In this document: one piece after another, positions 36,209 to 39,923 of the stretch | How positions within the stretch are numbered: the stretch's first letter is position 1 | How the letters are laid out: the number at the start of each line of letters is the position of its first letter | Assembly: GCA_903929475.1 (NCBI GenBank) | Contig: CAIYUV010000155.1 | Span: forward strand, 1-48,946 | From: an uncultured Spartobacteria bacterium | GTDB lineage: Bacteria; Verrucomicrobiota; Verrucomicrobiia; Chthoniobacterales; Chthoniobacteraceae | DNA length: 48,946 nucleotides | Reading direction: 5' to 3' | Notes under the pieces: generated by a model | What the model was told of the DNA's origin: nothing | The model's input: only the letters and a program-made list of their open reading frames with translations | Databases searched by the model: none | Translations under genes and position numbers: made by a program

Positions 36209-36240
36209 CGCGCACGGGAGTTGCATACCTCCCGCGCGCG
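36209..36240 (+). promoter_or_regulatory. GC-rich hairpin directly abutting a start codon
   Basis: Arms 36209-36220 (CGCGCACGGGAG) and 36229-36240 (CTCCCGCGCGCG) pair at 11 of 12 positions around an 8-base loop. The right arm ends at the base before ATG 36241. In RNA it would bury the ribosome landing site of the OmpA-family gene. There is no T-tract, so it is a weak terminator candidate. Confidence 0.5.
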
Positions 36241-39171
36241 ATGGAACTACGCCTTATTAAAGAGAAACCACTGGAGGTGCCGAAGATCAACATTTCGGCG
36301 GAAACACCCGTGGAAGCACCTGGCGTGGTGACTGCACCCGCAAAAACATCCGCACCCGTGGAATCGCCTACCGTGGTCGCCGCATCCGCGAAAGTGGCCG
36401 CACCAGCGAAAGCATCAACACCCGTGAAAGTGGCTGCGCCAGCGCCCGTGCAGGCTCCAGCGCAGGCACCTGCGATCATCGCCCAAGAAAAAAACCCTGC
36501 AGAAGAGCCGCCAAAACCAAACAACCGGGAATCCCACATCCTTCTCTATCCCTGCCAGAAATGCGGCGAACCCACGGCCTTTTGCTACCTGCGCACCGTC
36601 GAATTCGAAAAAAAAGAAAGCCAGCGCTACTGTCTGGTCTGCTTTGAAAAACACGAGAAAGCAAAAAATCAGCCTAACAATGTAAGTTCGGCACTCACAT
36701 CCGGTTCCACTTTTAAAAAGCGTGTTACATGGGAAGCTTGGAAGCTCATCGGCATACTCACCGCCAGTATCATCGCCCTTGCGGTCGGCTTATTTTTCGC
36801 CATCCGAAACCACAGCAAAGGCAAACAGCCTCAAAGCGCAACCATCGCAGGCGCGACCGATGCAAGCGGCCAGCCCGCAAAACCCGGCGACAAACCCGTA
36901 GCCACCGCCAACGGCCAGCCTGCAAATTCCGTCACACATCCGGGTAGCAAGAAACCCGGAGACCCCAACGCAGCCGCCAAGCCCGGAGCCATCGCCACCA
37001 ACGGCAACATCTCGGACGCAAATGCCAAGACAGCCGCCACCCCCGGAACAACCGGCAGCAAAACCGCCACCACCTCAGAAACCAAAAAAGCCGCCGAAGC
37101 CGACGCGAAGAAAAGCGCCGAGCACATCGAAAAAATTGCAGCGCTCGCCGAAAAGGAAAACAGCGGCAAACTCGCCAAGGATAAAGATAAAGACAAAGAC
37201 CCCAACACCCTCACCAGCCCCAAAGACGCCGCAGCAACCGATTCCCACGCCGCGAAGAAACCCGGCGAAAAAGACGGCCCGAAAAAACCCGGCGAAAAAG
37301 AAACCGCCAAAGACGCCGCCAAGCCCGGAGAAAAAGACCCCGCAAAGACCGCATCCGCCACCGACACGATCAAACAAATCGAGAATCTCATCCCGATGGA
37401 CGAGAAAAAAGCCGCGCCCAAATCCGAAACCGCAGAAAGCGAAAAAAAAACCACCGCCGCAACGCAGGACGACAAACCCAAGGACCTCGCCACCACCGGC
37501 GGTCCAGTCGCCGCAGACAACAAGGAAAACAACTCCAAACCCAACAACGCAAAACCCACCATCTCCCACGAAAAAGCCGTCGAACTGAACGGCAAACTCT
37601 CCACCGTAGCCGCCAAAGTCGCACCGAAACTCAAAAGCGCCTCCACCATCGCCTCTAGGATCACCGAAGTCGCCACCCGCTTTGCCCCAAAAACAGACCT
37701 CGCCAGCGGCCCCCTCGAACGCACCGCCGCGCGCCAGAACGACACCTCCGAACAAGGCGACCTCAACCTCGACGGCGGCACCGGCGAAGACGCATGGGAC
37801 GCCCTCCAGCGCGAAATCGCAGAATCAGACCCCAGCGTAAAACTCACCAACAACAGCACCAGCACCGACGGCGCACCCGGCACCAACACCCCCAACAGTC
37901 CTTACACAATCCCCGGCCTCCAGCCAAAAATCCCCGGAAAAACACCCGGCACCCCTTCCCCGTCGAACGCCCTCAACATCAAACCCAACACCCCCGCCAG
38001 CGCCTCCCCTGCCAAAAAAGTCACCCAGCTCAAATCCACCGACATCGTCCTCAACGATCTGTCAGGGAAGCCCCGCAAAACCGCCAGCCTCAACGGCACC
38101 GAAATTCAGATCAACTCCCTCAACGACGCCAGTCCCAAAAAACAAACCCAACTCAACAGCACCGAAATCAAACTCAACGCCACCGAAATCATGTTGAGCC
38201 CATTCACCGAAATCCCCACTCGGAAAGCCCAACTCAACAACACCGAAATCGTCCTCAATACCCTCACCGGCGTCGCCTCCGAGCAAGCAAAGCTCAACAG
38301 CACCACCATCCTCCTCCGCCCCCTTGTTGAGCCCAAGGGCGTCGCAGACATCACTGCGTTAAAAACTCCCCAGGCACCTACCCTCTACATCCCCGCCAAC
38401 ACACCACCTGTCCCGAAAATCATCGTCAACCGCTACGTCGCAATACCCGACGCCTTCAAAGGCGAAGTCATCATCCACACCCTCAACGCAGACACCCTCT
38501 TCGCCGACTCCCCCACCTCCCTCTGCAAAGCCGCCGAAGACCACCTCGCCCCCTTCGCCGAAGGCATCATAAAACACACCGAAATTCCCATCCTCATCCG
38601 CTGCTACACCGACAACATCGGCACCCTCAAAGAAAATCTAGCACTCAGCCAAAAACGCGCCGAGACCGTCCGCAATTGGTTCGTCAAAAAAACCGGCGTC
38701 CCCGCAAAAAACTTCACCATCATCGGCATGGGCTCCAGCGAACCCATCGCTTCCAACACCTACTCCGACGGCACCGACAACTTTCAAGGCCGCGCCCGCA
38801 ACCGCCGCATCACCATCACCACCCCCACCCTCATGCCCAGCAAAACGCCCGGACCACCCGCCGCAACGCCCGTCACTGCAACGATACCTGTGCCAGTTCC
38901 AGCAACAGCACCAGTCGCCGCGCCGACACTCGCTTCAATTCCAACTGCCACGCAAGTTGCCGAAGCAACACCCGCCCCGGCTCCCGCAATCACGCCACCC
39001 ACGACAACAGCGGCAATTTCCACCGTGGCAAACATACCAGGCCTCACGCCGACACCCGTCCCGACTCCGGCGGACACCCCGACGGCCAATAAAACCGCCA
39101 CCCCCTCGGAAGCACATCTCCCCGCTGCAACCTCGGCGCCGATTCCAGTTGAAAAACAGCCCGCTCAATAG
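36241..39171 (+). CDS. Mosaic membrane protein: zinc-ribbon, TM, novel repeats, OmpA-family domain
   Basis: 976 residues. Order: an Ala/Pro/Val-rich N-terminus (1-95); a four-cysteine zinc-ribbon-like module at about 104-140 (CQKCGE ... CLVCFEKH); one TM span at about 166-190 (LIGILTASIIALAVGLFFAI). Then a long Lys/Ala/Gly/Asp-rich region with KPGEKD-type repeats (190-590). Next, five copies of a 20-27-residue repeat at about 597-697 with the core LN(S/N)TEI.LN. Then an OmpA-like peptidoglycan-binding domain at about 750-860 (IRCYTDNIGT...NLALSQKRAETVRNWF...RARNRRITI) and a Pro/Thr/Ala tail. The likely topology is zinc module in the cytoplasm and OmpA domain in the periplasm. It may link an internal signal or scaffold to the wall; the role is unknown. 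Confidence 0.88.
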   Translation: MELRLIKEKPLEVPKINISAETPVEAPGVVTAPAKTSAPVESPTVVAASAKVAAPAKASTPVKVAAPAPVQAPAQAPAIIAQEKNPAEEPPKPNNRESHILLYPCQKCGEPTAFCYLRTVEFEKKESQRYCLVCFEKHEKAKNQPNNVSSALTSGSTFKKRVTWEAWKLIGILTASIIALAVGLFFAIRNHSKGKQPQSATIAGATDASGQPAKPGDKPVATANGQPANSVTHPGSKKPGDPNAAAKPGAIATNGNISDANAKTAATPGTTGSKTATTSETKKAAEADAKKSAEHIEKIAALAEKENSGKLAKDKDKDKDPNTLTSPKDAAATDSHAAKKPGEKDGPKKPGEKETAKDAAKPGEKDPAKTASATDTIKQIENLIPMDEKKAAPKSETAESEKKTTAATQDDKPKDLATTGGPVAADNKENNSKPNNAKPTISHEKAVELNGKLSTVAAKVAPKLKSASTIASRITEVATRFAPKTDLASGPLERTAARQNDTSEQGDLNLDGGTGEDAWDALQREIAESDPSVKLTNNSTSTDGAPGTNTPNSPYTIPGLQPKIPGKTPGTPSPSNALNIKPNTPASASPAKKVTQLKSTDIVLNDLSGKPRKTASLNGTEIQINSLNDASPKKQTQLNSTEIKLNATEIMLSPFTEIPTRKAQLNNTEIVLNTLTGVASEQAKLNSTTILLRPLVEPKGVADITALKTPQAPTLYIPANTPPVPKIIVNRYVAIPDAFKGEVIIHTLNADTLFADSPTSLCKAAEDHLAPFAEGIIKHTEIPILIRCYTDNIGTLKENLALSQKRAETVRNWFVKKTGVPAKNFTIIGMGSSEPIASNTYSDGTDNFQGRARNRRITITTPTLMPSKTPGPPAATPVTATIPVPVPATAPVAAPTLASIPTATQVAEATPAPAPAITPPTTTAAISTVANIPGLTPTPVPTPADTPTANKTATPSEAHLPAATSAPIPVEKQPAQ

Positions 39172-39257: not shown

Positions 39258-39923
39258 ATGAATAAATATCTGACTGAATTCCTCGGCACCTTCTTCCTCG
39301 TGCTCACCATCGGCTGCAATGCCCTCGGCTGCAATGCCCTCGGCGGAAATGCGCTCGCCCCAATTGCCATCGGCGGCGTTTTAATGGTGATGATTTTTGC
39401 CGGCGGCCACATTTCCGGCGCGCACTTCAATCCAGCCGTGACGCTCGCCGTCACCTGTCGCGGGAAATGCACTCAGGAGGACGCGTGCGGCTATATTATC
39501 TTCCAAGTGCTCGGCGCGGCGTTGGCGGCTTTTGCTGCAAAGTATCTCTACGCTGCCGCAGCGATGAAGCTCGTGGATGCTGCCGCAAAAACGGCGGCGG
39601 CACCATTCCCCACAGGCCCGGCATTTCTCGCCGAGTTACTCTTCACCTTCGCACTTGCGTGGGTGGTGCTGAATGTCGCGACCTCGAAGGGCACGGCGAA
39701 CAACAGCTTCTATGGCCTCGCGATTGGCGGCACGGTGATGGCGGGCGCGTTTAGCGTCGGCAGCATCTCCGGCGGCGCGTTCAATCCAGCAGTCGCCATC
39801 GGCGCGGCGATCATGGGCCTTATCCAGTGGGGAAATATCTGGGTGCATCTTTTTGCCGACTTCATCGGCGGAATGCTCGCGTGCTGTGCTTTCAAGACGC
39901 TGAGCAAAGAAGACGCGGCGTAA
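39258..39923 (+). CDS. MIP-family (aquaporin-like) channel
   Basis: 221 residues from ATG 39258 (MNKYLTEFLGTFFLVLTIGC), with six spans and two half-helices. Both NPA motifs are present: HFNPAVT (58-60) and AFNPAVA (176-178). The residue after the second NPA is Val179, where water and glycerol channels nearly always have the pore-lining Arg. An in-frame 15-bp DNA repeat (39312-39356) encodes CNALG-CNALG-GNALA at the end of TM1. Substrate is uncertain. It ends 9 bp from the convergent cytochrome gene stop. Confidence 0.92.
   Translation: MNKYLTEFLGTFFLVLTIGCNALGCNALGGNALAPIAIGGVLMVMIFAGGHISGAHFNPAVTLAVTCRGKCTQEDACGYIIFQVLGAALAAFAAKYLYAAAAMKLVDAAAKTAAAPFPTGPAFLAELLFTFALAWVVLNVATSKGTANNSFYGLAIGGTVMAGAFSVGSISGGAFNPAVAIGAAIMGLIQWGNIWVHLFADFIGGMLACCAFKTLSKEDAA

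Follow-up and report, generated by a model that had tools for sequence, protein, structure and literature searches.

A putative peptidoglycan-anchored inner-membrane tether with a cysteine module, LNxTEIxL repeats and an OmpA-like domain in one genus of Verrucomicrobiota

Results

Gene organization

The window (i.e., the whole stretch of 48,946 nucleotides analysed here) carries, at 36241-39171 (+), a frame of 976 codons without a stop, flanked upstream by mreC (named by eye) and mreB on the opposite strand and by an M48 peptidase gene on the same strand, and downstream by an aquaporin gene (39259-39923). From its N- to its C-terminus, the encoded protein consists of about 95 residues rich in Ala and Pro, a cysteine module, a transmembrane (TM) segment, a low-complexity stretch, a series of repeats, an OmpA-like domain and a Pro/Ala/Thr tail (Table 1). 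The ATG at 36241 lacks a clear Shine-Dalgarno sequence, and in-frame GTG codons lie between this ATG and the Cys module. An inverted repeat (GGGAG...CTCCC, 36213-36234) is located immediately 5' of the annotated start codon.

Table 1. Features of the putative tether gene (coordinates in the window; residues numbered from the ATG at 36241).
Feature	Coordinates	Strand	Evidence
Whole gene, 976 aa	36241..39171	+	Open frame; start codon uncertain
Four-Cys module, residues 105-134, CxxC-x22-CxxC plus Cys115	36553..36642	+	Sequence; weak PF01258/PF12674 matches below cut-off; low-confidence model; conserved in G003
Single transmembrane segment, residues 170-188	36748..36804	+	Hydropathy; helix in model
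Low-complexity Ala/Lys/Thr/Pro-rich stretch, residues 191-595	36811..38025	+	Composition
Block of strongest constraint, residues 441-535, predicted long helix followed by the GEDAWDALQREIAESD motif	37561..37845	+	dN/dS 0.17
LNxTEIxL repeat region, six copies	38029..38355	+	Pattern matches
OmpA-like peptidoglycan-binding domain, residues 746-862	38476..38826	+	PF00691 E 1.6e-15
Pro/Ala/Thr-rich tail, residues 863-976, apparently neutral	38827..39168	+	dN/dS 1.09 vs G005

The first-pass annotation had placed a Cys module, a TM segment, LN-TEI repeats and an OmpA domain in one chain, and this architecture is confirmed by the open frame and by a homologue in another genome of the genus (G003), where a 774-codon stop-to-stop frame holds a Cys module (CPSC...CLVC), a TM segment, an Ala-rich stretch, repeats (LNSTEIKLHDTTIRL and FNDTAIRLHDTAITLHSTAVQL) and an OmpA-like domain. 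Because this single frame repeats the layout seen in the window, and because the copy in G005 matches the window over residues 393-976 (73% identity, ended by a contig edge), the N- and C-terminal parts belong, as far as sequence can say, to one gene; the separate N-terminal gene that had been envisaged as a possible outcome was not obtained.

The cysteine module and the transmembrane segment

The cysteines of the N-terminal module occupy residues 105, 108, 115, 131 and 134. The module matches zf-dskA_traR (PF01258) at 19.4 bits, below the cut-off of 24.9, and Zn_ribbon_2 (PF12674) at 17.1 bits, below the cut-off of 22.5, and no PDB sequence matched the N-terminal part below E 0.099. In a structure model of this part (mean pLDDT 62.7), a beta hairpin lies between the Cys pairs 105/108 and 131/134, with a pLDDT of about 60 there. 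The module and the TM segment align with those of G003 at a score of 76, the maximum in 2000 shuffles being 49. When both were searched together across 213 genomes of the order, 37 passed E 0.02; among the matches read, the relatives recognised were G003 and G004 only. Of ten other loci retrieved, eight had their frames read: several were plainly other genes (e.g., 3-dehydroquinate synthase), and some were uninformative.

Residues 170-188 form the sole strong hydrophobic segment of the protein (Kyte-Doolittle mean 2.56) and are modelled as a helix with block pLDDT up to 91. Positive residues flank this segment on both sides, so that the inside rule is not decisive, and about 165 residues, including the Cys module, precede it, with no cleavable signal or lipobox apparent at the N-terminus.

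At face value, a Cys module, one TM segment and a periplasmic part recall the zinc-finger anti-sigma regulators, whose general plan combines a cytosolic Cys module, one TM segment and a periplasmic sensor; the Cys module would then hold a sigma factor and the wall-binding part would sense the state of the envelope. We consider such a regulator very unlikely: no family of the zf-HC2 type appears among the Pfam matches up to E 5, the spacing of the cysteines departs from the HxxxCxxC of that class, and no sigma-factor gene was found either among the four neighbours scanned with Pfam in the window or in the short flanks of the G003 and G008 genes, whose translations were read by eye.

The OmpA-like domain

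PF00691 matches residues 753-842 at 57.6 bits, above its gathering cut-off of 27.2. The top NCBIfam match of the domain is a YiaD-type OmpA lipoprotein (E 5.2e-19, 68.8 against a cut-off of 175), from which the protein differs by having no apparent lipobox, and the model of the long-form TssL of type VI secretion systems (T6SS), TIGR03350, matches the same part at E 9.6e-13, its 48.3 bits staying far below the cut-off of 139.8. In a search of plasmids, generic OmpA domains only were retrieved, in eight records.

In a structural study of TagL, the residues that contact diaminopimelate (DAP) are Asp486, Asn494, Leu497 and Arg501 (PMC8253398), and this spacing, as given there, falls on D791, N799, L802 and R806 of the window protein, all four residues being the same. 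Across five sequences (window, G005, G003, G008 and G004), Asp, Leu and Arg are kept in all, while Asn is kept in two (window and G008) and replaced by Ser in G005 and by Asp in G003 and G004, the domains of the latter two having also diverged outside the key residues. Accordingly, the window protein probably binds peptidoglycan, and binding by its relatives is less certain.

Selection along the protein

We compared the window with L032, a locus of a Prosthecobacter debontii metagenome-assembled genome taken as the G005 copy, using the Nei-Gojobori method. As point estimates from one sequence pair, with 40-117 codons per segment, dN/dS ratios are 0.25 for residues 393-440 (46 codons), 0.17 for residues 441-535 (95 codons), 0.88 for the linker 536-594 (58 codons), 0.33 for the repeats (111 codons), 0.37 for residues 706-745 (40 codons), 0.25 for the OmpA domain (117 codons) and 1.09 for the tail (114 codons), with an overall value of 0.43 (581 codons). 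Hence, block 441-535, the repeats and the OmpA domain are under purifying selection, while linker 536-594 and the tail are near-neutral.

The long arm and its constrained block

The link between the TM segment and the OmpA domain had been described as a disordered stretch of roughly 400 residues; the low-complexity part does extend over about 405 residues, but only up to the repeats, and the OmpA domain begins about 555 residues after the TM segment. The most constrained part of the protein, block 441-535, had been overlooked in the first-pass annotation. It shares 92% of its amino acids with G005 and is covered by no Pfam or NCBIfam family, both having been scanned. Its helix has block pLDDT 50-72 in a model of residues 440-870 whose mean pLDDT is 36. 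Compared with G003, the score of the entire block is reached by 2 of 2000 shuffles, and the GEDAWDALQREIAESD motif has GYDAFDAMVREAAAAE as its counterpart, with a score of 41 that just exceeds the best of 2000 shuffles (40). Since the wall could be reached with far fewer than these 555 or so residues, the constrained islands of the arm more plausibly represent docking sites than spacer.

The LNxTEIxL repeats

The repeat, first counted as five copies, does have the LNxTEIxL core but occurs six times: the pattern L[NK]xT[EDT]Ix[LI] matches at residues 597, 617, 638, 645, 665 and 685, the third and fourth copies being spaced by seven residues and the others by 20-21. Shuffling the 130-residue region 10,000 times gives a mean of 0.0037 matches and a maximum of one, a figure that describes regularity rather than an unbiased P, the pattern having been derived from the same copies. 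Between the window and G005, the cores are identical at 42 of 47 residues and the intervening spacers at 48 of 64. L032 contains 27 additional residues here, among them a further LNSTEI unit, while its final unit is altered; the looser pattern LxxTx[IV] accordingly matches six times in each chain. The small beta unit suggested at first pass is a conjectural fold for the repeat: the model of the region, built from two sequences only, has a pLDDT near 20 and is not usable.

In line with the initial impression that the repeat lies outside known families, neither Pfam nor NCBIfam has a family covering the copies. A leucine-rich repeat (LRR) origin was rejected, as no Pfam LRR match was found over the repeats up to E 1. 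In G029, a kinase bearing LRR-like repeats aligns weakly with residues 604-697 (E 5.3e-4), an alignment that we put down to the likeness between LNxTxI and LRR turns. Read by eye, the frame of this kinase (L039:707-3541) begins with an FHA-like part and also carries a kinase domain and leucine-rich repeats of the LNxTxI type. Among the ten genomes of the genus, the repeats were found in G000 and G005, and weakly in G003 (E 0.42). A search for them beyond the gene recovered, across 288 genomes of the phylum, the gene itself and one match in G231 (E 0.0077), where the frame at the locus contains no such repeat and the match was taken as chance.

Repeats of alternating hydrophobic and Thr residues do occur in surface fibres, and the protein might accordingly be imagined in the outer membrane or outside the cell, with the TM segment serving as an export signal that stays uncleaved and the repeats directed outwards as an adhesive stalk. 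We regard this arrangement as highly improbable, given the long Cys-containing region ahead of the TM segment, an N-terminus that looks like neither a cleavable signal nor a lipoprotein, and a C-terminal OmpA domain that belongs in the periplasm.

Distribution and genomic context

The long form occurs in four of the ten genomes of the genus (G000, G005, G003 and G004). The G004 copy lies on two contigs (L036 and L059), with a frame change and the loss of the repeat region, and may be broken or misassembled. G008 encodes a protein of 253 residues (L037:5965-6726) with CxxC...CxxC, a TM segment and an OmpA domain, without repeats. Its N-terminus aligns with that of the window at a score reached by 193 of 2000 shuffles (16 of 2000 against G003) and thus appears to resemble it in plan only; this compact protein is perhaps a minimal form, perhaps a convergent one. 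The remaining five genomes yielded generic OmpA matches or none. With the G008 protein as a full-length query against 40 genomes of the family and 387 of the phylum, no second Cys-TM-OmpA protein appeared among the matches read. No description of a Cys-TM-repeat-OmpA architecture was found in the open-access literature searched.

The neighbourhood also varies. In G007 (L104, G007:C8), the M48 gene is 93% identical and adjoins mreB, while the tether gene is absent, an aldo/keto reductase-like frame (named by eye) following M48 in its place. In G005, the gene is followed by fragments of the aquaporin gene (L038:1859-2105) and then by a katG-like gene (named by eye). The G003 gene adjoins an ABC transporter operon and a recR-like gene, and that of G008 is located elsewhere. 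The proximity to mreB is therefore a fact of this window and no conserved link, and because the neighbours differ between genomes, no partner can be named from the context. Taken at the sequence level, the gene is best read as accessory, fast-evolving and lineage-specific.

Such a pattern raises the question of whether the gene does much at all, as a fusion recently gained, decaying or neutral might. The patchy long form, missing after mreB-M48 in G007, the split and frame-shifted G004 copy and the approximately neutral evolution of the tail and of one linker would all suit a gene with little present function. We nonetheless judge this unlikely, in view of the strong purifying selection on block 441-535, the OmpA domain and the repeats between G000 and G005, and of the retention of the DAP-site Asp and Arg even in the most diverged copies.

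Discussion

Comparison with known envelope proteins

Several envelope proteins share parts of this plan. The B subunits of flagellar stators (MotB/PomB) consist of one TM segment, a periplasmic linker and a C-terminal OmpA-like domain, as is predicted for the tether protein, and the NCBIfam models of MotD and MotS match the latter weakly; yet its TM segment contains no acidic residue, in contrast to the MotB type, and no motA-like gene was found among the four window neighbours scanned. GltJ, a protein of the Myxococcus gliding machine, has an N-terminal zinc finger. Together with MreB, GltJ has been listed as an effector of MglA (PMC12288465), and it ends in a TonB-like domain (PMC8262864); likened by description alone, it is an envelope protein as well, but with a TonB-like end instead of OmpA. 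Finally, TagL and the long form of TssL are TM-anchored proteins of the inner membrane; part of the chain lies in the cytoplasm, and peptidoglycan is bound by an OmpA-like domain at the C-terminus (PMC8253398). The tether protein would share this layout, but whereas TagL has three TM segments and a T6SS partner, it has one TM segment and adds a Cys module, repeats and an arm of much greater length. Thus, it anchors like TagL or MotB but is, by the tests run, a member of neither family. The OmpA anchor itself is ordinary; what is new is the combination of parts and the repeat.

Proposed function

Altogether, the protein is probably an inner-membrane, peptidoglycan-anchored tether of one genus, putatively Prosthecobacter. 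It would have an N-in/C-out topology, which would place the Cys module on the cytosolic side and the OmpA domain in the periplasm, where the latter would hold the DAP stem peptide of peptidoglycan. The Cys module might bind a metal, probably zinc, and serve as a cytosolic contact or an oligomerisation knob, while the long arm would span the periplasm and the helical block and repeats would offer docking motifs to envelope partners. A cytosolic or membrane complex would in this way be fixed to the wall, as TagL does for the T6SS and MotB for the flagellar stator. The connection between cytosol and cell wall suggested at first pass is plausible in the light of the retained wall-binding residues, and remains a sequence-based prediction.

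A bolder version of the tether, to which we give little credence, is that of a genus-specific trans-envelope linker in which the LNxTEIxL units and the helical block represent a new class of periplasmic docking motifs. Such a linker would join a zinc-bound complex in the cytosol to the wall, would be tuned as repeat copies are gained or lost, and might serve the cell-shape apparatus of the stalked Prosthecobacter. Pending a partner or a phenotype, the interest of the gene is modest. If the predicted topology is right, the protein would nevertheless connect cytosol and peptidoglycan through a single chain in Verrucomicrobiota, a phylum whose envelope coupling has received little study, and would be a compact system in which to ask what is kept in place by a cytosolic Cys module that is anchored to the wall.
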